Notes: generated by a model not told the origin, from the sequence alone. A stretch of DNA of 52,733 nt from a virus (IMGVR_UViG_3300025418_000293:1-52733), one strand, 5' to 3'; positions 13,018-31,940 are shown, counted from the stretch's first letter. Made by a program: numbers and translations.

Positions 13018-13142
13018 TAAAATTTGCTGATCAATTGTACGGAATACTGTGTATGTGTGCGGGGTGTACCTTTCCCGCAGTTTGGGGGGTGCCCAGGTAG
13101 TGGGGGTCGCCGTGTCCCCGAATTTTTTTCTCTATCGTCAAA

Positions 13143-13223
13143 GGTCTAGTCGGAGAAGATCGTTTTTATTTTCGAGGTTTAGTCGGAGAAGATCGTTTTT
13201 ATTTTCGAGGTTTAGTCGGAGAA
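13143..13223. repeat. 33-bp tandem repeat, 2.5 copies
   Basis: Unit GGTTTAGTCGGAGAAGATCG plus TTTTTATTTTCGA, at 13143-13175 (one mismatch, GGTCTAG), 13176-13208 and 13209-13223 (partial). It lies in the divergent region between late and early promoters. The 33-base period equals the spacing of the G-rich repeat nearby and is close to three DNA turns, as expected for stacked protein-binding sites. Together with the flanking sequence this is all I see in the gene-free stretch 12944-13397 apart from the promoters and inverted repeat listed separately. Confidence 0.85.
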
Positions 13224-13328: not shown

Positions 13329-13359
13329 CGGAAACATCGACACAATGTCGATTGTTCCG
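13329..13359. promoter_or_regulatory. 31-bp inverted repeat, copy 1
   Basis: CGGAA-ACA-TCGACA-CAA-TGTCGA-TTG-TTCCG: the complete consensus with perfect arms. It lies 38 bases before the start of the 13398 gene, after the candidate early promoter. Confidence 0.85.
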
Positions 13360-13397
13360 TGAGCGTTTTGCTCGTTCCTTTATTTGGAGAATTAATC

Positions 13398-14054
13398 ATG
13401 ACTAAAAATCAAAACCCTGTTGCATCGGCTACGGCTGTTGTTGTTCAAACCATTGCGGGCAAACCTGCTATCGAGTTGCAAGATACGATCTTCACTATCG
13501 GTGAAGAATCGTTGATCGCTGAAAAGAAAATGTCTGAGGGCAAGCAAGCTCTCGATGTGCTCGATGCGAACCTCAACGATATCATCAAGGGCTTGCCTTA
13601 CGCTGAGTTCATGCTTGTTCGTGACTTCTACAAAGCGGGCGTGATCGACAAAGGCGTGAGCGACGATGGTGCTCAGAAACAATGGGAGCGCGCGGTCAAT
13701 CGTTGCGTGTCGACTTTTAATTTCATTAAGCCCAAGTCGCAAAGCGCCGACGCGTTGCGCAAAGCTGAAGCGAAGAAGAAGAAAATCGAAGAGCTCGCAA
13801 AGTTTGACGATGAGAAAATCGAAGAGAAAAAAGCTGAGCTCATTGCGCAGGGTACTGTGCAAGCGTTAAAGCAAGCGCAAGTTATCGCTCAGGAAATCGA
13901 GCGCCGTAACTCTGATGTACTTGAAGCTGAGAAGGCTCGCCGTAAAGAGCAAGCCGAAGCTATCATCAAGCGTATTCGTGAGTTAGTCAAGGCGGGCACG
14001 CCTGATGCTGATGATATCTTGTTTCAGTTGCACGCTATCGCGTCTGTTTATTAA
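13398..14054 (+). CDS. Coiled-coil early protein of unknown function
   Basis: A 218-residue protein, the first gene of the early block. The ATG at 13398 has GGAGA 7 bases upstream; an upstream alternative start at 13317 lies inside regulatory sequence. Residues 1-110 are mixed alpha/beta (TIFTIGEESLIAEKKMSEG, IIKGLPYAEFMLVRDFYKAG). Residues about 120-200 are a long charged coiled coil (RKAEAKKKKIEELAKFDDEK). It is flanked on both sides by 31-bp inverted repeats, so it could itself be the regulator or be regulated by one. I do not recognise the family. Confidence 0.8.
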   Translation: MTKNQNPVASATAVVVQTIAGKPAIELQDTIFTIGEESLIAEKKMSEGKQALDVLDANLNDIIKGLPYAEFMLVRDFYKAGVIDKGVSDDGAQKQWERAVNRCVSTFNFIKPKSQSADALRKAEAKKKKIEELAKFDDEKIEEKKAELIAQGTVQALKQAQVIAQEIERRNSDVLEAEKARRKEQAEAIIKRIRELVKAGTPDADDILFQLHAIASVY

Positions 14055-14063
14055 TTAACCTTT

Positions 14064-14093
14064 GGGAAATGTCGACACTTGTCGATGTTTCCC
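14064..14093. promoter_or_regulatory. 31-bp-class inverted repeat, copy 2 (30 bp)
   Basis: GGGAA-ATG-TCGACA-CT-TGTCGA-TGT-TTCCC. The centre has 2 bases instead of 3. It lies between the 13398 gene stop and the 33-residue microprotein. CCCTTTTCTTT follows, so it could also work as a weak terminator. Confidence 0.85.
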
Positions 14094-14115
14094 TTTTCTT
14101 TATTTGGAATTTATT

Positions 14116-14217
14116 ATGTTTGATTTTAATTCTTTTATGGCGCTCCTTATATTGGCGTGCGGGTTTGTTTTGTTTCTTTGGGCGTTGCTCATTATTTTGG
14201 AGGACTTAATGAAATAG
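14116..14217 (+). CDS. 33-residue membrane microprotein
   Basis: The frame MFDFNSFMALLILACGFVLF, then LWALLIILEDLMK, ends in TAG. It is almost entirely one hydrophobic helix (about residues 8-28). TTTGGAATTTATT before the ATG gives a weak ribosome binding site, in a context (TTTATTTGGA) like that of the 13398 gene. It sits between inverted-repeat copy 2 and a strong terminator, so it ends the first early transcript. The function is unknown; small membrane peptides of early phage genes often modify the host envelope, which is inference here. Confidence 0.55.
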   Translation: MFDFNSFMALLILACGFVLFLWALLIILEDLMK

Positions 14218-14237
14218 TTTGCGCTGAGTAAACTCGC

Positions 14238-14277
14238 GCCCGCCTCGGACTTCGGTTCGGGGCGGGCATTTTTTTTT
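14238..14277 (+). terminator. Strong rho-independent terminator
   Basis: GCCCGCC (14238-14244) pairs with GGCGGGC (14261-14267), extended inside by TCGGA/TTCGG to a C-UUCG-G tetraloop, and is followed by ATTTTTTTTT. It ends the first early transcription unit. Confidence 0.95.
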
Positions 14278-14312
14278 GGCCCGCTTTTTGCTTGGCCGTT
14301 CCGCGCCCTCGC

Positions 14313-14328
14313 GTGTCGCGCGCGACAC
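14313..14328. repeat. 16-bp perfect palindrome
   Basis: GTGTCGCGCGCGACAC. It carries the TGTCG/CGACA half-sites of the 31-bp inverted repeat in reversed (everted) order, so it might bind the same protein or be a local cruciform. Confidence 0.6.
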
Positions 14329-14448
14329 CAGTTCCCGTGAAGTAACGTGATAGCTCGTTGCCCAGCGGGCGATGCTTAGCGTGGAGTTTCCCCGCATTCC
14401 CTGATTCTATGTTACCAGTTCCCGAAGCAACGGCCTAGCCCGCGATGC
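14327..14448. repeat. Diverged duplication, ACCAGTTCCCG block
   Basis: 14327-14374 and 14414-14448 both begin ACCAGTTCCCG, continue with AAG-x-AACG, an AGC and a (C/G)GGGC or CCCGC stretch, and end GCGATGC or GGGCGATGC. It is an imperfect local duplication inside the non-coding region. Confidence 0.5.
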
Positions 14449-14478
14449 GGAACAATCGACACGTTGTCGTTTTTTCCC
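14448..14478. promoter_or_regulatory. 31-bp inverted repeat, copy 3
   Basis: CGGAA-CAA-TCGACA-CGT-TGTCGT-TTT-TTCCC, with one mismatch in the inner arm. This is the only copy not next to a gene start or end; it lies inside the candidate origin region. Confidence 0.8.
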
Positions 14479-14774
14479 AGCCGTGCTCGCGAAGAGTGCT
14501 CGGCTAGTGCAACCGTAGTTAAGCATCAACCTATTCTACAAAATGGATTACGAATGAACGGACTAGCTCAGCGCGGGCCCAGCTAGCTTCGCGGAGGGGT
14601 ATGCACAGAGGGAAAACCCCGTCTGAACGGCCTAGCATATATCGTACCAATAATACATAACGTATCGCTCAAAACGTATATAACGGAGTTTTGAATCTCC
14701 CCAGCAACGTTATGCTCATTTAATGTTATTCTTTTACTAGATCATATGCAGAGGCTCAAATTCTCTAAGTCCTT

Positions 14775-14830
14775 GTTATATATATATATTTTAATAAAAA
14801 TAATAATAATAGAGTAAAAAATATCAAATA
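14775..14830. other. AT-rich tract (candidate unwinding element)
   Basis: Runs of TATATATATATATTTTAA and AATAATAATAATAG-type sequence with almost no G or C. Easy melting here would suit an origin, next to the GC-rich repeat cluster. Confidence 0.4.
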
Positions 14831-14846
14831 TCATAGCCTTTTTTTA

Positions 14847-14946
14847 GGAATTATGAAGCCCCAAATTTGTCTCCACCCAAACACAGAAAAAGTTGAGAAT
14901 CAGGTGTTTTGACGAAAAATGTTTTTCTTAACCCTTTCATAATTCC
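14847..14946. repeat. 11-bp inverted repeat spaced by 78 bases
   Basis: GGAATTATGAA at 14847-14857 and TTCATAATTCC at 14936-14946 are exact reverse complements. They frame a gene-free segment directly after the AT-rich tract. Confidence 0.75.
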
Positions 14947-15019
14947 GAAAAGTGGTCAATGGTATTTATTATTTATTATCTAAAAATAACAAAAATCTAT
15001 GTATTTCGGGGTAAACCTG

Positions 15020-15048
15020 TTGACAAACGTAATATACAAAGATAACAT
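15020..15048 (+). promoter_or_regulatory. Promoter for the 15152 gene
   Basis: TTGACA (15020-15025), a 17-base spacer and TAACAT (15043-15048). A good -35 and a moderate -10, about 100 bases before the 15152 ATG. It begins GTTGACAAACG and so resembles, but does not share, the 14-base element of the other early promoters. Confidence 0.65.
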
Positions 15049-15151
15049 ATCTAAGCCATAACGTTGTTGAACACCCCCAAAACTACCCCCAAAAAGGGTG
15101 GTGTTGGCCACGCGCAACAGTCATTTTACCCACCAACTAGGAGAAACCCTA

Positions 15152-15820
15152 ATGAGAACCGCGAAGTACACCAATGCCGATACCTTGCTCGACAACTGCA
15201 CCATTCATGCCGACACTTGTTGTTGGACATGGCCCGAAGCCAACTTGCCGATCCCGCAGATCAGCCCTACCGCCCCGATGGCGAAGTTGATGGGTACAAA
15301 CTCCGTTACCCGTATTCTTTTCTGCATACTCCGACACCCGCCCGCATGCCGACGTCTGGTGTCCCGTTGCTCCACACCATTCTGTGTTAACCCCTACCAT
15401 CACGCAGAATCCTATAAGGTGTTACGCAAACGCAAACAAATCGAATCCTTGGGTTTGCCTTTTGATACCCCAATCAAAGACACAATTGACCGAAGCGTTT
15501 ATCCTGACGATGATGTGCTTAGATCACTAGTGTTTAAAAACCCAGTATATGTTAAAGCGTTGGGCGAAGCCGCGATGCGGGCAGGGACACATGGCAACAT
15601 GATTAGTAGGAGCGCAACTGCGCCTCGCCCCAAAATAAAGATAGCTATAAAGCGCAATATCGAGAAGCCCGTTCAGCGCGAGCTAAGCGAAGAGGACAAA
15701 AAGCTAGCCGAGATGGATATAGATCAGATATTCGACGCCGTGATGATGAAGAAAAAACGAAAAATGATTGAAGACTGGGATGACAGCTATTCCACCCCTA
15801 AAAACGGCGCAGGTGCTTAA
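15152..15820 (+). CDS. HNH_3-like zinc protein, catalytic His apparently lost
   Basis: A 222-residue protein started at the ATG with AGGAGA 9 bases upstream; in-frame upstream starts lack this. Residues about 20-85 follow the HNH_3 layout: CCWTWPEA, a hydrophobic TRILFCILRHPP stretch, then RCSTPFCVNPYHH (C73, C78, H83). The family normally has His at the position occupied by R72 just before the first Cys, so cutting activity may be lost. The C-terminal half is basic (PRPKIKIAIKR) and ends in acid/Lys-rich helix. Likely DNA-binding, perhaps a regulator or origin-region protein; it lies beside the candidate origin. Confidence 0.65.
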   Translation: MRTAKYTNADTLLDNCTIHADTCCWTWPEANLPIPQISPTAPMAKLMGTNSVTRILFCILRHPPACRRLVSRCSTPFCVNPYHHAESYKVLRKRKQIESLGLPFDTPIKDTIDRSVYPDDDVLRSLVFKNPVYVKALGEAAMRAGTHGNMISRSATAPRPKIKIAIKRNIEKPVQRELSEEDKKLAEMDIDQIFDAVMMKKKRKMIEDWDDSYSTPKNGAGA

Positions 15821-15835
15821 AACCCGACCAAGGAC

Positions 15836-15864
15836 TTGACAAAGTCTAGTTTTTGTGGTATACT
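15836..15864 (+). promoter_or_regulatory. Strong early promoter with the shared -35 element
   Basis: TTGACA (15836-15841), a 17-base spacer and TATACT (15859-15864). The text ACTTGACAAAGTCTAGT over the -35 is an imperfect palindrome (ACTWGAC-AAA-GTCWAGT), and 14 bases of it recur exactly at the 22343 and 30390 promoters. Confidence 0.9.
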
Positions 15865-15879
15865 CTACTATGTAGAGTA
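15861..15879. promoter_or_regulatory. Operator-like palindrome on the transcription start
   Basis: TACTCTAC-TAT-GTAGAGTA is a perfect inverted repeat with 8-base arms that covers the end of the -10 box and the expected start site near 15871. A protein bound here would block the promoter. Confidence 0.75.
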
Positions 15880-15917
15880 AAAACTACAGGGTTATTCATG
15901 CGCAACACAACAACAAT

Positions 15918-15948
15918 CGGAATAGTCGACACCATGTCGATTATTCCC
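15918..15948. promoter_or_regulatory. 31-bp inverted repeat, copy 4
   Basis: CGGAA-TAG-TCGACA-CCA-TGTCGA-TTA-TTCCC. It lies in the leader between the 15836 promoter and the 15966 gene, 17 bases before that ATG. Confidence 0.9.
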
Positions 15949-15965
15949 TTCCAAAGGAAAACAAA

Positions 15966-16133
15966 ATGGGAACACCTTACTACCACACCGCCGAGTCTGT
16001 GTTTGAAACAATCAAACGCTACAAAGATCTTCATGGGTTCGAGACCATCGAAGAAGCAATCGAGGACATGGCATCTTGCTATGACGACTTGGATGCTGAA
16101 GACAAGAGTGCATACGATTACACGAGTAATTAA
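15966..16133 (+). CDS. 55-residue acidic early protein
   Basis: Starts at an ATG with AAAGGAAAAC upstream, encodes MGTPYYHTAESVFETIKRYK, continues GFETIEEAIEDMASCYDDLD and ends in TAA one base before the next gene. It is acidic (many D/E) and helical, the first gene after the strong 15836 promoter. Small acidic early phage proteins often inhibit host enzymes or mimic DNA; that is only a possibility here. No family was recognised. Confidence 0.75.
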   Translation: MGTPYYHTAESVFETIKRYKDLHGFETIEEAIEDMASCYDDLDAEDKSAYDYTSN

Positions 16134-16134
16134 T

Positions 16135-16428
16135 ATGAAGTTCCTATTATCACGCAATTCTAAAGAATCAGATGACGATGAAGGCAGCAGCGCGTCCTCG
16201 TCACTTACCCCATTTCATCCCTGCACACGATGCGGAGATGATGTCCCCGCACAGCGTTGGTACAAAATATCAAAGCTGTGCTTATTCTGCGGTGAAGAAG
16301 CCGCAGTTCTTGAACGTGCCTCTTGGTGCGTTGTTCAACCCTACAACAAAGGGCCTTATATGCTAGTGACTGTAAGTTCTGCACCGCAGACGCTCATGGA
16401 CACGAACCAAAAGGCAACGCGTTCGTAG
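16135..16428 (+). CDS. Small zinc-ribbon protein
   Basis: A 97-residue protein begun at the ATG one base after the preceding stop. Two CxxC pairs, CTRCGDD (about 30-33) and CLFCGEE (about 48-51), form a likely zinc ribbon. The segment ASWCVVQPYNKGPYMLVT resembles a conserved motif of small phage proteins of unknown function. A longer in-frame version upstream would read through the inverted repeat and is rejected. The function is unknown, perhaps nucleic acid or protein binding. Confidence 0.65.
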   Translation: MKFLLSRNSKESDDDEGSSASSSLTPFHPCTRCGDDVPAQRWYKISKLCLFCGEEAAVLERASWCVVQPYNKGPYMLVTVSSAPQTLMDTNQKATRS

Positions 16429-16431
16429 TAT

Positions 16432-16462
16432 CGGAATCTTCGACACGGTGTCGATTATTCTT
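16432..16462. promoter_or_regulatory. 31-bp inverted repeat, copy 5
   Basis: CGGAA-TCT-TCGACA-CGG-TGTCGA-TTA-TTCTT, with only the last two outer-arm bases diverged. It starts 4 bases after the 16135 gene and lies 31 bases before the MoxR start. Confidence 0.85.
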
Positions 16463-16492
16463 TTTTATCTCAATCTTTAATTGGAAAATAAA

Positions 16493-17569
16493 ATGTCAGA
16501 AATCAAATTCTCTCGTCGCGTCAACTTCGCAGAAGCGGTTGACATCATACTCAACTCTGGTAACAACTCAGTTCACCTTACTGGCGAGCCAGGCGTTGGC
16601 AAGACTGCAATCCAAGACGTCATCGTCGAGCGCACAGGCTTTCACAAAGTCTACATCGACGGGCCAAACACCGACGTAGGCCAAGCGGGCATGCCGATCC
16701 CCAATCACACGACTCGCACCTTGGACTTCTACCCTGCGGAAAACTTTAAGTTGCATCTCAACGAGCCATGCGTAATCATGATCGACGAGTGGACTAAGAC
16801 CGACGACTATGTGCGCAACACTTTGCATCCCCTCTTGCATGAGCGTCGCATGAGTGATCGTTATCTGCATCCTAAGTCAATTGTCTTCACTACTGGTAAC
16901 AACGACGGCGATGGCGTCGGTGACTCAGCCAAGGCGCATACTCGCAATCGTCAGACATGGCTCACCTACATGAAGCCCACCGCAGAAGAGTGGCTCAAAT
17001 GGGCTATCAATAACGGAGTAGCAGAAGAGTTACTTGCATGGGTTACTGAGTATCCTCATTGCCTAGCATCCTACATAGATGGCGGGCAGAAAGAAAACCC
17101 TTACATCTTCAACCCATCGGATGCGTCGCAGATTGCGTTCGTGTCGCCTCGCTCTTTATTCAAGGCGTCGCATTGGGTCAAACGTCGTGACGTGATAACA
17201 GAGAACGCATTGATTGCGTGTCTCGACGGCACTCTTGGCTTTGCCGCATCGCGGGATCTGCAAGCCTATATCTCCATGGCTGATCAGCTACCTACGCGTG
17301 AGGCGATATCCAATAATCCTGAAACTGCTTTGATTCCAACGAGTCCTGCGGCTCTTTGTATCTTAGCTTTCAAGATCGTAACTGCATCCACCCGTGAAAC
17401 ATTCGGTACTTGGATGAAATACATACGTCGCATGCCCAAGGAAACGCAAGCGGTGTTCGTCAATACTTTGCTCGAAGATCAAAGTAAAAAGAACTGGGCC
17501 CTATCGCATCCTGCGTTTGTGACGTGGGCCCGTGAGAATCAATATATGTTTGCAGGATTGAAAGGATAA
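16493..17569 (+). CDS. MoxR-family AAA+ ATPase
   Basis: A 358-residue protein. I chose the ATG at 16493 after TTGGAAAATAAA. Walker A is GEPGVGKT (31-38), Walker B VIMIDE (94-99), with sensor region FTTGNNDGDGVGD (about 131-143) and an arginine-containing helix after it. MoxR ATPases act as chaperones that load or remodel partners carrying VWA domains. Such a partner is encoded two genes downstream, as in the CobS/CobT and MoxR/VWA pairs of bacteria. Why a phage needs it is unknown; possibilities are metal insertion, modification of a host complex or counter-defence (inference). Confidence 0.9.
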   Translation: MSEIKFSRRVNFAEAVDIILNSGNNSVHLTGEPGVGKTAIQDVIVERTGFHKVYIDGPNTDVGQAGMPIPNHTTRTLDFYPAENFKLHLNEPCVIMIDEWTKTDDYVRNTLHPLLHERRMSDRYLHPKSIVFTTGNNDGDGVGDSAKAHTRNRQTWLTYMKPTAEEWLKWAINNGVAEELLAWVTEYPHCLASYIDGGQKENPYIFNPSDASQIAFVSPRSLFKASHWVKRRDVITENALIACLDGTLGFAASRDLQAYISMADQLPTREAISNNPETALIPTSPAALCILAFKIVTASTRETFGTWMKYIRRMPKETQAVFVNTLLEDQSKKNWALSHPAFVTWARENQYMFAGLKG

Positions 17570-17572
17570 ATC

Positions 17573-17830
17573 ATGAGTATCAAAATTGGAACAGCAACAC
17601 GCGAAGAAGTAGAAGATGAAATGGCGGATCAGACGCGTAACTTGTACATAGCCATTGGTGCGGTGCTTGACTCGCGCCGCATTGATGTTGTGCTATCTGC
17701 ATTGAGCAAGCACTTCATTGAGACTTGCTTAGAGGTAGGCATGAACCGAGATGACTTCACCGAGGTCGCTCTGCGTGTCTACGATGTAATCAAAGAAAGC
17801 AACGAAGAGGAAAACAAATATGTTAACTAA
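17573..17830 (+). CDS. Small acidic helical protein in the MoxR operon
   Basis: An 85-residue protein, acidic and helical, with TATREEVEDEMADQTRNL and VLDSRRIDVVLSALSKHF. It starts 3 bases after the MoxR stop and overlaps the next gene by 11 bases, so it is translated with the ATPase and VWA protein. No family was recognised. It could be an adaptor for the pair. Confidence 0.7.
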   Translation: MSIKIGTATREEVEDEMADQTRNLYIAIGAVLDSRRIDVVLSALSKHFIETCLEVGMNRDDFTEVALRVYDVIKESNEEENKYVN

Positions 17831-19106
17831 ATCCAAACTAACTGCGGAGCAACGCATTGAGCTGGTGCATGTCAGCCTTATGCGTTCAAGGGAGTTCGCG
17901 TTGTTCGCGGGCTTGTTCATGGTCGGCTCGGTCGAGGTGATCGACGCGCCCGTTACTGCGTGTACGAATGGTCGTGACGTCAAGTATGGTCGAGAGTTCA
18001 TCGCTGAGCTAACCGATAAAGAGTTGGCCTTTCTTGTTCTGCATGAGAATATGCACAAGTGCTACCGCCATCTCACAACGTGGGCGAAGCTATACGAAAC
18101 CCATCGTGCATGTGCCAACATGGCATGCGACTATGTCATCAACATCCAACTGTGCGATCTTGACCCGCATGGCAAGCTCATCTCGTTTCCTATTAACAAG
18201 GAAACAGGAGAGCGTATGGGTCTGGTCGATGAGAAGTATCGTGGGTGGGATGCCAAGCAAGTCTTTGATGACTTGATGAAGCACGCCAAGCCCATTCCTC
18301 CCCGTAGCGGGCAGGGCGAGGATGGCGAAGGCCAAGGTCAAACCCAAGGAGATGGGAATAATCGACAAGATGTCGAAGATTCCGATGGCGTACCATCGTT
18401 CGATGAGCATGACTGGGAGAATGCGAAAGAGATGACCGAGAAGGAGAAAGACGAACTCGGTAAAGAGATCGACAGTGCATTGCGCCAAGGTTCTATCTAC
18501 GCGGGCAAGGTCGGTGCTAACGTACCACGAGAGATCGGCGAGCTTCTGGCCCCGAAGATCGATTGGCGGGCGGTGCTACGTCGGTTCGTCAAGACGCATC
18601 TCAAAGATCGTGACGCACCATCGTGGCGTAAGGCTCATCGTAATTACTTATGGCAAGACGTCATACTGCCAAGCATCATTGGCAAACGCGTCAAGCATCT
18701 TGTGATTGCAATGGACACATCAGGCTCGGTCGCGGGCAGACTGCTCGACATGTTCCTCACCGAACTTAATAAGATCGTTGTGGATACGCGGGCTGAGCGC
18801 GTCGACGTCTTGTACTGGGACACAAGCATATGTGGTCATGAGACTTACAAGAGCACTGATAACAAGTCTATTGTGCATCGCACTAACCCACGCGGGGGTG
18901 GCGGGACTAACCCCGACTGTATTGCTGACTTCTTCCGCGCCGAGCAACTCAAGCCCGACGCGTTGGTCGTTATCACAGATGGGTATATGCACAGCAAGCC
19001 AGAGAACTGGCGTCACGTCGGCGTTCCGTCGCTGTGGTGTGTGATCGGCAACGACAGTTATAAGCCACCACATGGTCAGTTGTTAACCATTAAGGATGAA
19101 TCATGA
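17820..19106 (+). CDS. DUF2201-type protein: HExxH metallopeptidase-like domain plus VWA
   Basis: A 428-residue protein. The N-terminal domain (about 1-130) carries FLVLHENMHKCYRH with HENMH (75-79), an HExxH zinc motif. A disordered acidic linker (about 160-210) follows, then a VWA domain with MIDAS DTSGS (299-303), a TNP-type second site and VVITDG near the end. This is the PF13203/PF09967 layout, which is usually encoded beside MoxR ATPases; the pair here is close and overlapping. It may be a MoxR-dependent peptidase or chaperone with Mg-dependent ligand binding. A 31-bp inverted repeat lies inside the linker coding sequence. Confidence 0.85.
   Translation: MLTKSKLTAEQRIELVHVSLMRSREFALFAGLFMVGSVEVIDAPVTACTNGRDVKYGREFIAELTDKELAFLVLHENMHKCYRHLTTWAKLYETHRACANMACDYVINIQLCDLDPHGKLISFPINKETGERMGLVDEKYRGWDAKQVFDDLMKHAKPIPPRSGQGEDGEGQGQTQGDGNNRQDVEDSDGVPSFDEHDWENAKEMTEKEKDELGKEIDSALRQGSIYAGKVGANVPREIGELLAPKIDWRAVLRRFVKTHLKDRDAPSWRKAHRNYLWQDVILPSIIGKRVKHLVIAMDTSGSVAGRLLDMFLTELNKIVVDTRAERVDVLYWDTSICGHETYKSTDNKSIVHRTNPRGGGGTNPDCIADFFRAEQLKPDALVVITDGYMHSKPENWRHVGVPSLWCVIGNDSYKPPHGQLLTIKDES
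18354..18384. promoter_or_regulatory. 31-bp inverted repeat, copy 6 (inside a gene)
   Basis: GGGAA-TAA-TCGACA-AGA-TGTCGA-AGA-TTCCG, with the exact 31-base spacing, embedded in the VWA protein gene where it encodes part of the low-complexity linker (about residues 179-189). A perfect element in a region free of protein constraint argues for selection on the DNA. Confidence 0.85.
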
Positions 19107-19258
19107 GCCAAGCCGCTTATTCTATTAATCTCAATCGGGAAACTTTCGAGTTGCTCGAAGATGTACGCGAACGCCTAGTCGCTGAACTAGGGTTCGAGCC
19201 AACTCTCGGTCAGGTGGTTCGCCACTTGATTGCCATTTACCATGCAAGAAAGGTGTAA
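19103..19258 (+). CDS. 51-residue ribbon-helix-helix-like DNA-binding candidate
   Basis: The frame overlaps the VWA stop by four bases (ATGA) and encodes MSQAAYSINLNRETFELLED, then VRERLVAELGFEPTLGQVVR and HLIAIYHARKV. The order strand (SINLNRE), helix, FEPTLGQVVRHLI helix is like small CopG/Arc-type ribbon-helix-helix repressors. Such dimers bind palindromic operators, and the operon carries inverted repeats, so it is a candidate for the protein that reads them. The length is typical of the family, but the match is only by pattern. Confidence 0.6.
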   Translation: MSQAAYSINLNRETFELLEDVRERLVAELGFEPTLGQVVRHLIAIYHARKV

Positions 19259-19260
19259 CC

Positions 19261-19443
19261 ATGCCACTCATCGCACTTGGTAAAGGGCAGGTCGTTTACG
19301 AGCGACCTAGTGAGCGCGTTCGCATTGGCAGACTTGTTTGTATTAACGAGATCGTCAACGCACGCAAACGTAGGAATGCGACCGAACAACTCTCGGTCAG
19401 CATGTCCATTATCCAAAAAGCATATCTTTTCAAAGGAAAATAA
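19261..19443 (+). CDS. 60-residue basic protein (uncertain)
   Basis: The ATG is 2 bases after the previous stop, with AAAGGTG upstream. The product MPLIALGKGQVVYERPSERV is basic and continues RIGRLVCINEIVNARKRRN; the rest is helical. Coding signal is modest. The last third reads through a degenerate copy of the inverted-repeat sequence (ATGTCCATTATCC), so it may be a real gene or a leader with an accidental frame. Confidence 0.45.
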   Translation: MPLIALGKGQVVYERPSERVRIGRLVCINEIVNARKRRNATEQLSVSMSIIQKAYLFKGK

Positions 19444-19444
19444 A

Positions 19445-20512
19445 ATGGGTTGGAATACTGCGCGAGTATCGAAACTTAATAGTTTCGACGAAGCGAGAAA
19501 GAGATTTCTCGATACACCACCGATAAAGGGCAATCCTCTCAAGGTTCGCCCTCTCGGAGCGAGACGTTATTACAGGTTGGCGAGCATCTCGATGCCCAAC
19601 GACAGCACTGTGAGTCTCGACTACTGTGGCAGACCACTTGTGGTTTGGCATAGCGACAATACGTTTGAAGTGCATTATCCGTATTACACATCTGCGTATG
19701 TGCCCGACAACATCTTCAACTACGTTCCTATTGGGTTCGGGTTTGGGTGGTCGAAGTCTCGTCTGACGTTGCGCATGAGCGGGGAAGAGTTTGTTATGGA
19801 ACGTGGCGAAGTGTATAAATTTCAAAACATCAAAAACAAATTCTTTTTCTTGAATGCCCCTACGTCATACAACTATCGGTTGAATGTGCGTGAGTTCAAG
19901 CAAAAGTTTGACCCTGTGCAGAAGTTCTTGGACTGGTTCAACATTGTGTCTGCTATCAATAACGAGCACACTTCATTAGCTATTCAAGAAGTCTATGCAA
20001 ACTTCAAACTTGCACATGAAGTACCGCCTTTGTTGCTTTTCGATGAACTCAGAGAACGATGCCAAAAGCATCGTAATAACGACGAATTGAATAAGATCTG
20101 CATGCAATGCTGGGATGAGCAACGCGACTCTGAATGGTTACCCGTTGGGGGCAATCAACGTTACCATCATCGGTACACTGGGTTTCATCGCCCAACGGCA
20201 GAGACGTTATACAACTGGATCATTGATCGCGATGGCGAGCATTGGACTGAGGCGTTATACGTCATACTCAATTCGCAAGGCACACGCGTTGATCGCGGAG
20301 ATTCATTCACAATTACGCAGAAGGATTTGCGTGAGTATGTGGTGAACATCGTTAAGTTCTTGTTTCGTGACGAGGTGTTCAACCGCGTGCGTCTAGACAA
20401 GGGCGTGGTTGCGTCGAAGACCAACTACAACTTCTTTGAACCCGAAACAGTGTTCAGTATCAACAGCGGAACAATCGACATCGTGTCGAAAATTCTTGGA
20501 GAACTAAAATGA
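19445..20512 (+). CDS. Conserved phage protein of unknown function
   Basis: A 355-residue protein; I start at the ATG preceded by AAAGGAAAATAAA rather than the alternative start at 19277. The N-terminal region has LNSFDEARKRFLDTPPIKGN and KVRPLGARRYYRLASI, a pattern (PI-G ... RPLG-RR) I recall from other phage proteins of unknown role, followed by beta structure. The C-terminal half is helical. It lies between the MoxR/VWA genes and the DUF3150-like gene with ATGA coupling to the latter, so it probably works with them. Confidence 0.75.
   Translation: MGWNTARVSKLNSFDEARKRFLDTPPIKGNPLKVRPLGARRYYRLASISMPNDSTVSLDYCGRPLVVWHSDNTFEVHYPYYTSAYVPDNIFNYVPIGFGFGWSKSRLTLRMSGEEFVMERGEVYKFQNIKNKFFFLNAPTSYNYRLNVREFKQKFDPVQKFLDWFNIVSAINNEHTSLAIQEVYANFKLAHEVPPLLLFDELRERCQKHRNNDELNKICMQCWDEQRDSEWLPVGGNQRYHHRYTGFHRPTAETLYNWIIDRDGEHWTEALYVILNSQGTRVDRGDSFTITQKDLREYVVNIVKFLFRDEVFNRVRLDKGVVASKTNYNFFEPETVFSINSGTIDIVSKILGELK
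20467..20497. promoter_or_regulatory. 31-bp inverted repeat, copy 7
   Basis: CGGAA-CAA-TCGACA-TCG-TGTCGA-AAA-TTCTT. It overlaps the last codons of the 19445 gene and lies 11 bases before the next start; its end (TTGGAGAAC) contributes to that gene's ribosome binding site. Confidence 0.8.
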
Positions 20513-21366
20513 ATGCAATATCTTTATCCTCAATGGCAATGTTAGTGGAACTGCGTATCAGCACATGGACTGCACGCAAGCGTGACAACGAGACGACTAT
20601 GGATGTCAACACCGAGAAGAACGCAGATCAGGATGCGGGCTCGGTGTATAAGTATCTCATGGCGGGCAGTGATCACCTCAAGAAGATCGAGAAGTATGCG
20701 GCGAAGGCTAGGGCTTGGAACTCGTCGCAGACTCTCCCTTGGATGAAGGGTGTTAGCCTTTTACCCATGGAGAACTTCTTCAAGTACCGCGAGCAACTCG
20801 GTACGATGGAGTCAAACTTCTATGCGCTTGTCGATGAGTTCATCATTGCGTATCCCAAATTGAAAAGCGATCAGGCTTTCAAGCTGGGCAAGTACTACAA
20901 GGCTGAAGAGTTCCCCGACGTGGAGACGCTACCGCGTCGCTTCAAGTTCGAGTATAACTTTCTCCCTGTTCCAGAGAAGGGTGACTTCCGCATCAACTGC
21001 GAAGACCGCGTGCGCGCTGACCTTGCTCAGCAGTACGAGAAGATGTACACGGACAAGCTGGCCGAAGCTATGCGTGAACCATGGAACAGACTGCATGAGG
21101 TGCTGACTCACATCAGCATGACCATGACTGACAAGCAAAACGGTGATCGTCGGATCTTCCGCGACACGCTTGTAGATAACGCAACAGGTCTTTGTGATCT
21201 GCTGACTAGACTCAACGTGACCAATGATCCAGAACTTGAGAGCGCTCGTCGTTTGCTAGAACAGGCAATCGTTGGAGTCGATCCCCAGGATCTCCGCGAA
21301 TCATCTCATGCTAGGCTAGAACTGAAAGCGTCTGTCGACGATATCCTCAACAAATTTAAATGGTGA
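20509..21366 (+). CDS. DUF3150-like protein
   Basis: A 285-residue mostly helical protein. It starts at an ATG overlapping the upstream stop (ATGA), with GGAGAA in the copy-7 repeat as ribosome binding site. ELRISTWTARKRD, then DAGSVYKYLMAGSDHLKKIEKY, QTLPWMKGVSLLPMENFFKY and a YNFLPVPEKGDFRI stretch follow the DUF3150 layout as I remember it. In bacteria and phages this family tends to lie near MoxR and VWA genes. That neighbourhood is repeated here and supports the call. No catalytic residues are known. Confidence 0.7.
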   Translation: MNAISLSSMAMLVELRISTWTARKRDNETTMDVNTEKNADQDAGSVYKYLMAGSDHLKKIEKYAAKARAWNSSQTLPWMKGVSLLPMENFFKYREQLGTMESNFYALVDEFIIAYPKLKSDQAFKLGKYYKAEEFPDVETLPRRFKFEYNFLPVPEKGDFRINCEDRVRADLAQQYEKMYTDKLAEAMREPWNRLHEVLTHISMTMTDKQNGDRRIFRDTLVDNATGLCDLLTRLNVTNDPELESARRLLEQAIVGVDPQDLRESSHARLELKASVDDILNKFKW

Positions 21367-21370
21367 AAAC

Positions 21371-22240
21371 ATGATACCTACAAACATTAAACTAACAGAC
21401 GACCTCGTCTTAGATCCATCCTTTGCGTTGTTCCTCGAACCGCTAGCGTTGGCTAACCCTAACTGGGAGTTCACACCGCAGACTGCGAACTACAACGACA
21501 CGCGCACTACGGCTCATGTTCAACGTGACGAAGACAATCAGTATCTTTCCGCGCCTGCTGGTACTAAGTTTCTGAACAACGTCAAAGTAAAGCAAGACGG
21601 GCAGAGACTAGGTTTCTTGAAAATGGATAGTAAGCATACGGCAGAAGGCCATGTGCCCAACTACATTATTAAGTCGTGGCGTATCCACAAGTCGCGCGGG
21701 ACTTACGACGAGACAGAGACAACTAAACTTAAAATTGCACTACGCAATGCGAAGAAGTTTCTCAAGCCTCGAACGTTGGTAGAGTTATTCACTAAGAAAA
21801 GCAACGAACTCCAGAGTGGTTTTGTTAATGCGACAGCATCGCTTGTGCAAGCGTTTCGATACATTGGGCAAGACTTTTCTGGCGATGTACAACTGTATGC
21901 GTATTGTATACTGACCAATCGAGACGTACCACAAAAAACAAAAGCAAACGTGGAGAAAGTCATGACAGCATCTACTTACGAGAGACAGATCGGTGACTAC
22001 CAACTTGCCCTTAACATGAAAGAGTTGGAGAGTGCAGGTCGTTTGATGAGTATTGTCAAGACGCGAGACGACAAGTATATGTACGCATCCAAAAACGCTG
22101 ACCCTATCGTTGTAGAGTATGAAGAACTACCTGTGCCGTGGCAGGAGAAGCTGGCTGTGTTACAGCTCTTGCAAAACGACGAGTTAGCTGGAGATATCGG
22201 CTACCGACATACGAGTCACACGTTCATGATCGTGACATAA
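21371..22240 (+). CDS. Unknown protein closing the MoxR/VWA operon
   Basis: A 289-residue protein, 4 bases after the DUF3150-like gene. Visible parts are an N-terminal region with LDPSFALFLEPLALANPNWEF, a helical centre rich in K and E (KLKIALRNAKKFLKPRTLVEL), and a C-terminal EELPVPWQEKLAVLQLLQND. No known motif was recognised. It ends 17 bases before a strong terminator, so it is the last gene of the unit that begins at the 15836 promoter. Confidence 0.75.
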   Translation: MIPTNIKLTDDLVLDPSFALFLEPLALANPNWEFTPQTANYNDTRTTAHVQRDEDNQYLSAPAGTKFLNNVKVKQDGQRLGFLKMDSKHTAEGHVPNYIIKSWRIHKSRGTYDETETTKLKIALRNAKKFLKPRTLVELFTKKSNELQSGFVNATASLVQAFRYIGQDFSGDVQLYAYCILTNRDVPQKTKANVEKVMTASTYERQIGDYQLALNMKELESAGRLMSIVKTRDDKYMYASKNADPIVVEYEELPVPWQEKLAVLQLLQNDELAGDIGYRHTSHTFMIVT

Positions 22241-22257
22241 TAATTTGCTAACCAACT

Positions 22258-22282
22258 GACCCGCTTCGGCGGGTCTTTTTTT
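22258..22282 (+). terminator. Rho-independent terminator with UUCG loop
   Basis: GACCCGC-TTCG-GCGGGTC followed by seven T. It ends the MoxR/VWA operon. Confidence 0.95.
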
Positions 22283-22285
22283 GCT

Positions 22286-22316
22286 CGGAATAATCGACAC
22301 GATGTCGGTATTTCCC
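22286..22316. promoter_or_regulatory. 31-bp inverted repeat, copy 8
   Basis: CGGAA-TAA-TCGACA-CGA-TGTCGG-TAT-TTCCC, with one mismatch in an inner arm. It lies between the terminator and the next promoter (-35 at 22343), so it can affect only what starts at or reaches this boundary. No copy was found further downstream. Confidence 0.85.
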
Positions 22317-22342: not shown

Positions 22343-22371
22343 TTGACAAAGTCTAGACATGCCACTATATT
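22343..22371 (+). promoter_or_regulatory. Promoter of the replication block, shared -35 element
   Basis: TTGACA (22343-22348), a 17-base spacer and TATATT (22366-22371). CTTGACAAAGTCTA is identical to the 15836 and 30390 promoters. The expected start coincides with the ATG at 22378, so the message would be leaderless. Two related sequences, CTAGACATGCCAC and CTAGGCATGGCAC, lie 19 bases apart around the -10. Confidence 0.9.
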
Positions 22372-25512: not shown

Positions 25513-25620
25513 ATGGTAGATGCATTAGTTTGGGCGTTGGCATTTGGTGGTGTGATTGCCGTCGTTATTTATGCGGCGGTATTGGCATGGATGTTTGTGC
25601 AGGAGCATAAAGATGACTAA
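25513..25620 (+). CDS. 35-residue single-pass membrane protein
   Basis: ATG with GAGGGGAA upstream, 1 base after the nuclease stop. MVDALVWALAFGGVIAVVIY, then AAVLAWMFVQEHKDD: one hydrophobic helix (about residues 5-28) and a short charged tail. It overlaps the next gene by 8 bases. The function is unknown. Confidence 0.65.
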   Translation: MVDALVWALAFGGVIAVVIYAAVLAWMFVQEHKDD

Positions 25621-25858
25621 AGAAGAAATTTTAAAGATAGCACAAGAATGCAATTTATTAGGAATGCGCCCACATCTTGATGGTATTTATTCTGAATCAC
25701 TTGAAGCCTTTGCCAAACTGGTAGCAGAAAAAGAACGTGAGGCGTGTGCTGAAATTTGTGATGGTTTTTACTTATCATGGATAGACATACAAGGTAGATA
25801 TGAATTCATGGGTGAGGGAGCAAGCGAATGTGCTGGTGCAATCAGAGCAAGGAAATAA
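25613..25858 (+). CDS. Small EREACA-motif protein (array member 1)
   Basis: An 81-residue protein starting MTKEEILKIAQECN, the same opening as several neighbours. AFAKLVAEKEREACAEICD and the closing GAIRARK form a motif pair common in small phage proteins of unknown function. It begins a run of about eleven small genes to 28547 that share parts with one another. Most of the run overlaps by 4-14 bases. Confidence 0.7.
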   Translation: MTKEEILKIAQECNLLGMRPHLDGIYSESLEAFAKLVAEKEREACAEICDGFYLSWIDIQGRYEFMGEGASECAGAIRARK

Positions 25859-25860
25859 TA

Positions 25861-26040
25861 ATGACTAAAGAAGAAATTGATTATTTTTTAATACAAGAAC
25901 ATTTTGTAAAACTTTGTAGATGGATAGCAGAACTAGAACGTGAAGAGTGTGCCAAGATTTGCGATGAATATGCGCTAGAAGATGAGAATTGGGCAGGCGG
26001 TTGTGCTTTCGCTATTCGTAAAAGGGGAAAAAATGACTAA
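25861..26040 (+). CDS. Small EREACA-motif protein (array member 2)
   Basis: A 59-residue shorter relative of the preceding gene: MTKEEIDYFLIQ, RWIAELEREECAKICDEY and CAFAIRKRG. The 2-base gap and shared opening suggest duplication. No catalytic residues are visible. Confidence 0.65.
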   Translation: MTKEEIDYFLIQEHFVKLCRWIAELEREECAKICDEYALEDENWAGGCAFAIRKRGKND

Positions 26041-26587
26041 AGAAGAACTATTTGATATTGCAGATCAAATATTAACCATGCCATACAAAAAAGAAGATGT
26101 ATTGTATTTGGCAAATTATTTGATGGAAAACGGCAGGCAAATGATGTTGAAAAACGCAGAGTTACAAATCGAAGTGGCAATACTAAAAGAACGTGAGGCG
26201 TGTGCTGATTTACTTATGGGATTACATGAGGCGCAAAGTAACAATGACAACCATAACTATTACCACTTTGCTTCAAACGCCATCAAGGAATTAAGAGGCA
26301 AGACTATTACCATTAAAACTAAACAATATAAACCACAACGCACATGGGTAGGACTAACTGAACTAGACTGCGTAGGTTGGTTTGGCTATGACACGGGAGT
26401 TGGCGCTTGGTTTGAAACAAACAAAGGTGATGATGACTCTATTCCGTTATACAAAGAACCACCACAGCGTGAATGGGTAGGACTGACTGATGAAGAGATA
26501 CAAGAATGTCTGCAAGGTTTGCCAACACAGACCATCGATGTGTATGCAAGACGCATTGAAATTAAGATTAAGGAGAAGAACACATGA
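26033..26587 (+). CDS. Array member 3: EREACA region plus two WVGLT modules
   Basis: A 184-residue composite. It starts MTKEELFDIADQIL, has KEREACADLLM (about 60-70) and then two copies of the module QRTWVGLTELD and QREWVGLTDEEIQE, with the closing KIKEKNT. It appears to fuse the EREACA type of the preceding genes with the WVGLT type of the following ones. The function is unknown; the module recurs in other phages at the ends of small proteins. Confidence 0.7.
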   Translation: MTKEELFDIADQILTMPYKKEDVLYLANYLMENGRQMMLKNAELQIEVAILKEREACADLLMGLHEAQSNNDNHNYYHFASNAIKELRGKTITIKTKQYKPQRTWVGLTELDCVGWFGYDTGVGAWFETNKGDDDSIPLYKEPPQREWVGLTDEEIQECLQGLPTQTIDVYARRIEIKIKEKNT

Positions 26588-26967
26588 CTGACGAAGAAAT
26601 ACACAACATTTATTTGCACATGAGTGGCAAAGCGGAAGGGTTAGTTGAAGCGACTGGCACGGCTGACTTTCCTGTATTGTTTGCTAGAGCAATACTTGAG
26701 TACGAAGGACTGACAAAAGATATGCAAAACATGGCATCTAAATCTACTTATAAAGAACAACTAGAAACAAAAAATGAACCTGTGGCGTGGGAACAGTTCC
26801 ATGAACACATGGCGGGGCCAAATTATGTTGCACCACAACGCACATGGGTAGGACTGACAGAAGAAGATTTAAAACTACTATCTGCTGAATGGCGAATTGT
26901 TTATGGCGCATGGATGGATGACTTTGCCAAAGACATTGAAGCCAAGCTGAAGGAGCGTAACACATGA
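26584..26967 (+). CDS. Array member 4: WVGLT-motif protein
   Basis: A 127-residue protein overlapping its neighbours by 4 bases at each end (ATGA). It starts MTDEEIHNIYLHMSG, has KNEPVAWEQF in the middle, then PQRTWVGLTEEDLK and closes with FAKDIEAKLKERNT. The last two pieces are shared with members 3, 5 and 6. Confidence 0.7.
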   Translation: MTDEEIHNIYLHMSGKAEGLVEATGTADFPVLFARAILEYEGLTKDMQNMASKSTYKEQLETKNEPVAWEQFHEHMAGPNYVAPQRTWVGLTEEDLKLLSAEWRIVYGAWMDDFAKDIEAKLKERNT

Positions 26968-27293
26968 CTAAAGAAGCATTACAAATTGCATTAAATGCGT
27001 TGACTGATTTTGATTACGACAAACGCATCAAGGCTATTGAAATTATTAAAGAAGCACTAGAAACAAAAGATGAGCCTGTGGCGTGGATGAACAGACACGG
27101 TGCTTGTAAGACTTCTTTGTTTAGGGAGATGGAAGCTGGCGCAAAAGAAGAATACACCATTCCTCTTTACACCACAACACAACGCACATGGGTAGGACTG
27201 ACGGATGACGATGAAATTCCTTGGGATGGGGTCGATGCCAAGTCTTTTGCCAGAGCCATTGAAGCCAAGCTGAAGGATAAGAACAATGGATGA
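26964..27293 (+). CDS. Array member 5: WVGLT-motif protein
   Basis: A 109-residue protein: MTKEALQIALNALTDF, KDEPVAWMNRHGACKTS, TTQRTWVGLTDDDE and SFARAIEAKLKDKN. The DEPVAW element matches member 4 and the ending matches members 4 and 6. The ATG overlaps the upstream stop. Confidence 0.7.
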   Translation: MTKEALQIALNALTDFDYDKRIKAIEIIKEALETKDEPVAWMNRHGACKTSLFREMEAGAKEEYTIPLYTTTQRTWVGLTDDDEIPWDGVDAKSFARAIEAKLKDKNNG

Positions 27294-27597
27294 AAATACA
27301 CGCCCTTGGTACACCATTGATGAACTAAATGCGTGGGCTGATAATTACCAAAATGAGCAGTGGCATAAAGCCGCAATCAGGCTTGGAGAAGAATTAGCAT
27401 CTGTTGGGCCTGTTGGCTATTACGAAATGGACGCAAAAGAATGGCTTGATTGGGCTATGTCAACCGTACAAACTCGCACATGGGTAGGACTGACGGATGA
27501 TGAATTTAATGAACTTTACGATAAATATGTTCCAGAATCTTGCTACGCATTGTTAATTGAAAAAGTAGAAGCCAAGCTGAAGGAGCGCAACACATGA
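27286..27597 (+). CDS. Array member 6: WVGLT-motif protein
   Basis: A 103-residue protein with a different N-terminal half (MDENTRPWYTIDELNAWADN, GEELASVGPVGYYEMD). It then has the shared TRTWVGLTDDEFNEL and ending KVEAKLKERNT. The new front and shared tail suggest recombination at the module borders. Confidence 0.7.
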   Translation: MDENTRPWYTIDELNAWADNYQNEQWHKAAIRLGEELASVGPVGYYEMDAKEWLDWAMSTVQTRTWVGLTDDEFNELYDKYVPESCYALLIEKVEAKLKERNT

Positions 27598-27779
27598 AGA
27601 AACCTGAAGACGATGGTTATGAATACAAAATATATGACATGGCAAGATTTTATGTACCCGAAGGTTTGTATTCAATTGAAGATATTGAAAAAATGCTTGT
27701 TCACATGAAAAAAACAAAACAAAAAACAGAAGCATACCTTGCAAAAACATTAGAGCCAATTAAGGAGAAGAAAACATGA
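27594..27779 (+). CDS. Array member 7: small Lys/Glu-rich protein
   Basis: A 61-residue protein without the WVGLT motif, but with the same kind of ending (EPIKEKKT) and ATGA-type overlap at both ends. The opening MKKPEDDGYEYKIYDMARFY is unfamiliar. Confidence 0.6.
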   Translation: MKKPEDDGYEYKIYDMARFYVPEGLYSIEDIEKMLVHMKKTKQKTEAYLAKTLEPIKEKKT

Positions 27780-27949
27780 TTAGAAAAGACATACAAAAAG
27801 CATGGAACATGATGTCTATGCATAACAGTGAATTGTTGTTGGAGAACTATGAGCTGAAGGAGCGCATCAATAAATTAGAAGCACAACTATTTAAAAGAAC
27901 ATTTTGGGGGTACATCAAATGTTTGTGGGTTAATAGGAGGGTGTTATGA
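27776..27949 (+). CDS. Array member 8: 57-residue coiled-coil peptide
   Basis: ATG overlapping the previous stop, frame MIRKDIQKAWNMMSMHNSEL then LLENYELKERINKLEAQLFK and a basic, aromatic C terminus. The central part is a short leucine-type coiled coil. The stop overlaps the next start (ATGA). It is too small for a confident family. Confidence 0.55.
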   Translation: MIRKDIQKAWNMMSMHNSELLLENYELKERINKLEAQLFKRTFWGYIKCLWVNRRVL

Positions 27950-28158
27950 CTGAAGAAGATGAAGAGTTTGATCGTATACAAAAACGCATTGATCGGTACA
28001 AAGAAAATCCACGATGGAGAGACCACAGTATTTGGGTAGGATTAACGCCTGATGAATTGAATGAAATTTTTGATTCGTTTAAGACATGGAACAGTTTTCA
28101 AATAACAGATGTTTATTTTGCAATTGAAACTAAATTAAAGGATAAAAATGGATACTGA
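27946..28158 (+). CDS. Array member 9: WVGLT-motif protein
   Basis: A 70-residue protein: acidic and basic helix at the front (MTEEDEEFDRIQKRID), then HSIWVGLTPDELNEIF and the closing AIETKLKDKNGY. This is the shortest form of the shared tail module; a GGAGGG ribosome binding site precedes it. Confidence 0.7.
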   Translation: MTEEDEEFDRIQKRIDRYKENPRWRDHSIWVGLTPDELNEIFDSFKTWNSFQITDVYFAIETKLKDKNGY

Positions 28159-30846: not shown

Positions 30847-31713
30847 ATGGGTAACATCACCACATTCAAAGACAATCTTCCCGCCCACTTACAAAACGTA
30901 AAGTTGGATGACTTCACCAAAGCATTCACTTCAAGCGGTGGCTCAAGCAAGCGCATCTCGTTGCGTGGCCGTGTATTCCGTCTTGTTGACGGCGGTAAAG
31001 AGATTGCAAAAAATACTGACCCGCATTTAGATGTAGTAATTGTCAACGGCAGTAAATCTGTACAGAAGAAATATTTTGCAACAGACTACAATCCTGATGA
31101 GGCCGCACAACCCGATTGCTGGTCTAGCAATGGCGAGCGCCCCGACGCAGAAGTGGCTGACCCACAGGCTGACCACTGCAAAGAATGCAAGCGCGCTATC
31201 AAAGGCTCTGCGAGCGGTGGCAAAACACAATGTAAGTTTTCATGGAATCTTGCATTAGTTTTGAAGAACAACATGGCGGGCGACATTTACCAATTGGTTG
31301 TGCCATCCAAGTCTTTGTTCGGCACGGGCGACGTTGACCATATGCCCTTTATTCAATACGCTAAGTATGTTGCGCAGTCAGGCTACAACTTGAACATGCT
31401 CACAACACGTTTGACGTTTGATACGGATTCTGATTATCCCAAACTTACATTCAGCAATGTAGCGTTTCTTGATAGCGACGACTACGATATCTCTGTTAAG
31501 CAAGGCGAGTCGCAGATTGCCGTCAACGCAAGTAAGCTAAGTTTCAGCGGTAAGAAACCTGAACCCACATTGCCTAAGATGGTGGCTCCAGCGGGCTCGG
31601 CCGCAGCGGCTTTAACAGCTCCTACTAAGAGAGCAGAGACAAAGAAGGCAGACGCGCCAAAGCCTAAGACTGGTCTGGCTACTATGGTTGACGACTGGGG
31701 AGATGATGCGTAA
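30847..31713 (+). CDS. Probable single-stranded DNA-binding protein
   Basis: A 288-residue protein. RISLRGRVFRLVDGGKEIAK and LDVVIVNGSKSVQKKYF suggest an OB-like beta barrel. A Cys/His cluster (PDCW ... DHCKECKRAI ... TQCKFSW) looks like a zinc ribbon inserted in the fold, as in T4 gp32-like proteins. After a disordered A/K/P linker the C terminus is acidic (TMVDDWGDDA), the usual tail for partner recruitment in SSBs. It precedes the primase-helicase. The family is a frequent one in phages annotated as ssDNA-binding, but my call is by architecture. Confidence 0.7.
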   Translation: MGNITTFKDNLPAHLQNVKLDDFTKAFTSSGGSSKRISLRGRVFRLVDGGKEIAKNTDPHLDVVIVNGSKSVQKKYFATDYNPDEAAQPDCWSSNGERPDAEVADPQADHCKECKRAIKGSASGGKTQCKFSWNLALVLKNNMAGDIYQLVVPSKSLFGTGDVDHMPFIQYAKYVAQSGYNLNMLTTRLTFDTDSDYPKLTFSNVAFLDSDDYDISVKQGESQIAVNASKLSFSGKKPEPTLPKMVAPAGSAAAALTAPTKRAETKKADAPKPKTGLATMVDDWGDDA

Positions 31714-31940
31714 TGATTGGTTACTCACAGCAAACTGTTCGTTTGAATAGAGATGCTGATGGGAAATCGCTGGGAGTAAAGCTCGGGCGAGTTTGCATCG
31801 CCCGAGACATCCCAGTCTCTGATGTCATGGAATTTTTTAGCGTCTCAAAACAAACTGTTTACAATTGGTTTTGTGGCGTCCATGTCCCAGGAAAAACCCA
31901 TGCGGCTAGTATTCAAGATTTTTTAAACCGCGTCAGATAA
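31713..31940 (+). CDS. Helix-turn-helix DNA-binding protein
   Basis: A 75-residue protein whose ATG overlaps the SSB stop (TAATG). VKLGRVCIARDIPVSDVMEF and FSVSKQTVYNWFCG (about residues 35-54) form a clear helix-turn-helix, and AASIQDFLNRV closes the domain. The closing layout is typical of small phage regulators. It could bind the shared early promoter element or the 31-bp inverted repeats, or act at the origin; nothing visible decides between these. Confidence 0.8.
   Translation: MIGYSQQTVRLNRDADGKSLGVKLGRVCIARDIPVSDVMEFFSVSKQTVYNWFCGVHVPGKTHAASIQDFLNRVR

Follow-up and report, generated by a model that had tools for sequence, protein, structure and literature searches.

A group of freshwater phages carries 6 to 20-odd copies of one palindrome across the early genes, and the sequence of the palindrome is specific to the lineage. 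The set was recognized in a viral contig of 52,733 nt (IMGVR_UViG_3300025418_000293:1-52733), the whole of which is referred to here as the window. Judging from sequence comparison, the palindromes are probably double-stranded DNA sites of a phage-encoded regulator, most likely the first-gene product gp13398, that would exert a stoperator-like control over the early block.

The palindrome set and its block

The sites lie in the first rightward block of the genome, which begins immediately past the divergent terminase genes and ends at the terminator that precedes the nuclease/PolA operon (Table 1). The block encodes gp13398, a fast-evolving 222-aa protein, small ORFs, an AAA ATPase, a VWA/DUF2201 protein, a ribbon-helix-helix (RHH)-like protein, gp19445, a DUF3150-like protein and gp21371, and its position suggests that it is transcribed early. 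The AAA/VWA gene pair is of the same kind as that annotated in N4-like phages. A stretch of about 930 nt (14218-15151) is devoid of a convincing gene and partly AT-rich, and contains a strong terminator at 14238 together with S3. Direct repeats of about 33 bp (AGTCGGAGAAGATCGTTTTTATTTTCGAGGTTT) are found just upstream of S1, at 13140-13220, and a run of small ORFs at 25556-28158, several with a common WVGLT motif, constitutes an apparent local gene family.

The 29-bp sequence GGAAN3TCGACAN3TGTCGAN3TTCC was matched seven times with 0-1 mismatches, starting at 13330, 14449, 15919, 16433, 18355, 20468 and 22287, and none is expected by chance (0 matches in 100 dinucleotide shuffles). The eighth palindrome, S2, differs at its centre and accounts for the single 30-base copy that the first-pass annotation had listed beside seven copies of 31 bases. 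In a position weight matrix (PWM) scan of the window the seven sites score 38.7-44.4 bits, against 3.5 bits for the next best place, and no further copies occur anywhere in the 52.7-kb record, all eight being located between 13329 and 22316; the earlier count of eight copies and none elsewhere is thus borne out. The sites are strongly biased towards gene borders and leaders, as had been claimed. Six of the eight are non-coding (1.4 under random placement, p = 0.0009) and six lie at most 75 nt 5' of a start codon (0.9 under random placement, p = 0.0001). The distances from site to start range from about 11 to 61 nt, a pattern that S3, S6 and S8 do not fit. The copy described within a gene linker corresponds to S6.

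Table 1. Palindromic sites, genes and transcription signals discussed in the text, in window coordinates
Feature	Coordinates	Strand	Remarks
S1 palindrome	13329..13359	.	38 nt 5' of gp13398 start; syntenic in relatives covering S1
S2 palindrome	14064..14093	.	2-bp centre; just 3' of gp13398, 5' of small ORF
S3 palindrome	14448..14478	.	in ~930-nt non-coding stretch
S4 palindrome	15918..15948	.	17 nt 5' of 55-aa ORF, downstream of 15836 promoter
S5 palindrome	16432..16462	.	30 nt 5' of AAA gene; place conserved in relatives
S6 palindrome	18354..18384	.	within VWA gene (linker GDGNNRQDVEDSDG)
S7 palindrome	20467..20497	.	overlaps 3' end of gp19445, 11 nt 5' of DUF3150 gene
S8 palindrome	22286..22316	.	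between block terminator and nuclease/PolA operon promoter
gp13398, 218 aa, proposed reader	13398..14054	+	first gene, flanked by S1 and S2
Sigma-70-like promoter TTGACA-17-TATACT	15836..15864	+	upstream of S4
AAA ATPase (phrog_1297, MoxR-like)	16493..17569	+	
VWA/DUF2201 protein (phrog_1314)	17820..19106	+	carries S6
51-aa ribbon-helix-helix-like protein	19103..19258	+	
DUF3150-like protein	20509..21366	+	24.0 bits, just below the 24.9 cut-off
Intrinsic terminator ending the block	22258..22282	+	directly before S8
Sigma-70-like promoter TTGACA-17-TATATT, nuclease/PolA operon	22343..22371	+	after S8
75-aa helix-turn-helix protein	31713..31940	+	outside the block

An exact-match scan of IMG/VR for the window motif retrieved 39 stretches that contain it. 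The relatives with long contigs carry mostly 8-9 copies, confined to the 9-10-kb block that separates the PolA operon from the terminase genes. Gene and site maps of these relatives place the sites syntenically: before and after gp13398, in the following non-coding stretch, after gp15152, before the AAA gene and in many genomes also after it, inside the VWA gene, before the DUF3150 gene and after gp21371. Most relatives retain the site at the same place within the VWA gene, with protein identities of about 60%. In all relatives and motif classes inspected, the last site immediately follows an intrinsic terminator and precedes a TTGAC-type promoter. The motif is therefore neither equally dense across the genome, the rest of which is free of it, nor missing from the same gene borders in relatives, two of the outcomes that the first-pass annotation had set against its own reading.

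DNA-level and RNA-level readings of the sites

The arms of 101 distinct sites of the window clade show 54 one-sided and 6 compensatory changes, in agreement with the earlier description of conserved arms and freely varying N3 blocks that lack compensation. Across the same 101 sites, pairing between the N3 blocks does not exceed that of shuffled letters, and at two positions it is clearly lower. A search of Rfam gave no relevant RNA family. The one-sided arm changes, the unpaired N3 blocks and the location of S8 between a terminator and a promoter favour a reading at the level of DNA.

Alternatively, the palindromes could form intercistronic hairpins in the transcript that act in processing, attenuation or translation control and are read by a phage RNA-binding protein. 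Most sites are indeed placed about 11-60 nt 5' of start codons, three of the eight in the window score as terminator-like, many copies in the cultured phage Pag-Yong1 lie 21-22 nt 5' of the start, and several sites of the TTAACA class overlap the Shine-Dalgarno sequence. Moreover, of the 86 oriented window-clade sites 23 are followed, in the sense of transcription, by a T-rich run and 1 shows the mirror image (an A-rich run before the site), and such a direction is not required of a pure DNA palindrome. Against transcript hairpins, the conserved feature is the sequence of the arms rather than a structure, as the one-sided changes and the at most random pairing of N3 indicate; the last site keeps its place after a terminator and ahead of the next promoter throughout; and the class CTAACA-N1-TGTTAG has room for a short stem only. 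We regard RNA-level elements as unlikely on balance, and a double role in DNA and RNA is possible at some places.

The hairpin promoters of the N4 virion RNA polymerase are also inverted repeats with a 3-base centre in the early region, and the AAA/VWA gene pair is a second feature in common with N4. N4 hairpin promoters have a conserved loop and asymmetric downstream bases, whereas the sites described here are symmetric and neither their central N3 nor their spacers are conserved. No polymerase match was found among the large proteins of the window phage that were scanned. Promoters of the N4 type thus appear unlikely.

Palindrome classes and the protein that changes with them

Loci were further fetched by means of the AAA protein, and many lacked the window motif and contained another palindrome family in the same block. 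These lineage-specific families comprise CCGACA-N3-TGTCGG (full site GAAC-N3-CCGACA-N3-TGTCGG-N3-GTTC), ATCGAA-N5-TTCGAT (outer GAAC and GTTC), ACCCTT-N5-AAGGGT (outer GGAA and TTCC), TTAACA-N2-TGTTAA, CTAACA-N1-TGTTAG, CTGAGA-N2-TCTCAG, GTGACA-N2-TGTCAC and CCCGTA-N1-TACGGG. More distant phages carry CCTAACAwTGTTAGG (17 copies), ATTAACANNTGTTAAT, CTGAGAWWTCTCAG, CCCGTANTACGGG and CGTGACATATGTCACG. Shuffled sequences yielded at most 2-4 copies of such alternative families. The Planktothrix cyanophage Pag-Yong1 (OL906435; loci L127, L129 and L130) has about 35 copies of GGTTCAG-N-CTGAACC (GGTTCAGNCTGAACC), with at most one mismatch, over its whole genome, and those close to start codons in the early operon are situated between the stop codon and the Shine-Dalgarno sequence. 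Some of its copies are found in late genes.

Several sites of the TTAACA class (L116-L119) read TTAACAGGAGTTAATAAATG, the centre of the palindrome doubling as the Shine-Dalgarno sequence. Among distant relatives of gp13398, L196-L199 (27-30% identity) contain weak TCGACA-N4-TGTCGA families, a possible spacing variant. No clear palindrome family was seen in L186, L187, L194 and L195, three of which (L186, L194 and L195) show a weak TACCAA-N7/8-TTGGTA family that may represent a further class. None was clear either in L109 and L115, distant relatives with an AAA gene, or in the stretches read of three terminase relatives, the cultured pelagiphages HTVC027P and HTVC023P and phage DSL-LC04, in which no AAA/VWA block is annotated.

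Two pairs of near-identical phages differ in the palindrome, and all copies are changed in both. L095 (ATCGAA) and L097 (CCGACA) share 93% identity in TerL, 92% in AAA, 96% in RHH and 97% in DUF3150, and their first-gene proteins are only 37% identical; L095 and L087, which have the same motif and are less related overall, are 73% identical in this protein. Low values were also observed for gp19445 (49%) and gp21371 (46%) between L095 and L097, as between most other pairs. In the second pair, L124 (CTGAGA) and L123 (GTGACA), most proteins are 88-97% identical, the first-gene protein is 34% identical over half its length, and nine of nine syntenic sites are switched. The first-gene family of this pair is unrelated to that of gp13398, yet it repeats the switch pattern.

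The association was quantified in 27 loci as the residual identity gap between same-motif and different-motif pairs, corrected for genome distance, with a permutation test that does not model phylogeny. gp13398 displays a gap of +12.7 points (p = 0.0005), the other proteins tested ranging from -3.1 to +4.1. Smaller gaps were obtained for p7244 (+3.1, p = 0.0005) and gp19445 (+4.1, p = 0.0145), and no tracking was seen for AAA, VWA and DUF3150. Fast evolution is shared by gp19445, gp21371 and gp15152. The signal within gp13398 is strongest in residues 24-135 and disappears in residues 136-153 and 201-218. Because gp13398 alone shows a large gap after distance correction, it is favoured as the reader.

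Loci were independently sought by the first-gene protein alone and then scanned for palindromes. The L117 protein retrieved 44 loci, 43 of them newly scanned, and TTAAC-type palindromes were present in at least three copies in 37 of the 43, in two copies in 5 and in none in 1. All four loci retrieved with the L123/L124 protein carry the palindrome expected from the protein, and the loci found by gp13398, as far as they cover enough of the block, contain palindromes of the TCGACA, CCGACA or ATCGAA families.

Both candidate readers put forward in the first-pass annotation were discarded. The 51-aa RHH protein shows no association with the motif (residual gap -0.9, p = 0.82) and is 96% identical across two phages with different palindromes. 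The 75-aa helix-turn-helix protein has a weak residual gap (p = 0.0125 in 12 loci, with a permutation that ignores phylogeny), and its recognition helix, V[ST][KR]Q[TC][VI]Y[NS]W, is near-invariant across motif classes.

The reader could instead be another phage protein (the AAA/VWA complex, gp19445 or gp21371) or a host protein, the first gene being merely exchanged alongside S1-S3. The proximity of gp13398 to these three sites and the residual gap of gp19445 are consistent with such an exchange. Nevertheless, the distal S7 and S8 switch too, while the adjoining DUF3150 gene stays 95-97% identical, and neither AAA, VWA nor DUF3150 follows the motif. A scan of species-representative bacterial and archaeal genomes (GTDB) gave no exact match to the window motif, which argues against sites of a host regulator. 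A reader other than gp13398 thus appears improbable.

The predicted structure of gp13398 (mean pLDDT 86.6, pTM 0.52) consists entirely of helices, the C-terminal one being long; no recognized DNA-binding domain was detected in it, and no match was retrieved from Pfam, PDB or viral structures. A structure search with a model of the L117-family first-gene protein likewise gave no match. The symmetric site of constant length suggests a dimeric or tetrameric reader. As no homology was detected between the first-gene proteins of the main clades, a mechanism shared across clades would need unrelated or extremely diverged readers.

Comparison with known systems and proposed role

In the phage-plasmid N15, a few inverted repeats that bind SopB are dispersed through early and replication genes and are able to affect transcription; N15 encodes both ParA (SopA) and ParB (SopB). 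The palindromes could similarly serve in partition or genome organization, as centromere-like sites bridged by a ParB/SopB-like protein. They resemble the N15 sites in being few, palindromic and spread in early and replication genes, and the first-gene protein of L124 (L124:6232-6879) has a sub-threshold match to the ParB-family PF08775 (E = 0.004, residues 105-191). In contrast to N15, the ParA-type ATPase (PF13614) and ParB_N (PF02195) are found in none of 20 records, some perhaps incomplete; PF08775 has no match in the gp13398 family or in L123; and window-clade sites avoid the rest of the genome. A partition set is, therefore, very unlikely. Integrase and resolvase families (PF00589, PF00239) are equally absent from these 20 records, some perhaps incomplete, and attachment sites for either enzyme were rejected. 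Of the explanation by a DNA-binding protein advanced at the outset, the regulon-like site set stands, in view of the site variation, the synteny and the place of S8; the proposed readers are not supported and the partition set is disfavoured.

A search of the literature for prior descriptions of such a palindrome set returned only mycobacteriophage analogues. Cluster A mycobacteriophages (L5, Bxb1 and Trixie) possess stoperators, 13-bp asymmetric and oriented sites of the immunity repressor (PMC6550527, PMC9283540), at which the bound repressor stops elongation (PMC6550527). The likeness to stoperators stems from the location of the present sites, which are many, dispersed, at gene borders and mostly away from promoters, and in both cases the site sequence varies between lineages with the regulator, here a putative one. 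Unlike the transcription-oriented stoperators, the sites are symmetric palindromes of 13-29 bp (29 bp in the window), the candidate reader is unrelated to known repressors, those of the L5 type included, and has no recognizable DNA-binding domain, and, unlike in the temperate Cluster A, no integrase or ParABS was found in the 20 records, some perhaps incomplete. The system would work like stoperators, yet departs from Cluster A in several defining features.

A second analogue is provided by the SAS/ESAS repeats of Cluster K. Each genome has 11-19 repeats at translation starts, about half of them bearing additional inverted repeats, and conservation follows the gene family; the SAS are asymmetric and a role in translation initiation has been proposed (PMC3203893). 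The tie to translation starts is shared. Unlike SAS, the present sites are symmetric and undergo a protein-linked lineage switch, none being described for SAS in the available part of that report (PMC3203893). The fixed short distance to the start codon expected of SAS/ESAS is absent in the window (11-61 nt) and partly present in the TTAACA class.

In the stoperator-like model, gp13398 would be made between S1 and S2 and form a symmetric oligomer on each 29-bp site, with residues 24-135 setting the sequence specificity and the long C-terminal helix pairing the subunits. From the gene borders of the block, the bound protein would regulate early transcription, probably as an obstacle that blocks or pauses the elongating host RNA polymerase, and would repress its own gene; early shut-off with autoregulation appears as the most likely function. 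At S8, bound gp13398 may insulate or control the PolA operon. Lineages would swap reader and sites together and each thereby acquire a private specificity. The diversification of the palindromes would be explained if the reader had an immunity-like effect on kin that co-infect; the corresponding proposal, that these are lytic phages with immunity groups in which lineage-diversified, unrelated all-helical readers shut off their own early block and that of kin with the same code, is a tentative one that we consider rather doubtful.

One well-studied temperate group, the Cluster A mycobacteriophages, is known in which a regulator and all of its dispersed sites change in concert. The freshwater phages described here, which are widespread and in which lysogeny genes were not detected, show a corresponding change of a putative regulator and its sites; these sites are symmetric, and the proteins have no recognized DNA-binding fold. 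If the model is true, a stoperator-like system operates in phages in which neither lysogeny nor partition genes are detectable. The group offers about ten natural reader-site pairs, including two near-isogenic switches and one cultured phage, in which it may be asked how 8-20 sites and their regulator come to adopt a new code jointly, and whether immunity-like specificity groups exist in phages without lysogeny, and it provides a lead to the function of several unnamed protein families.
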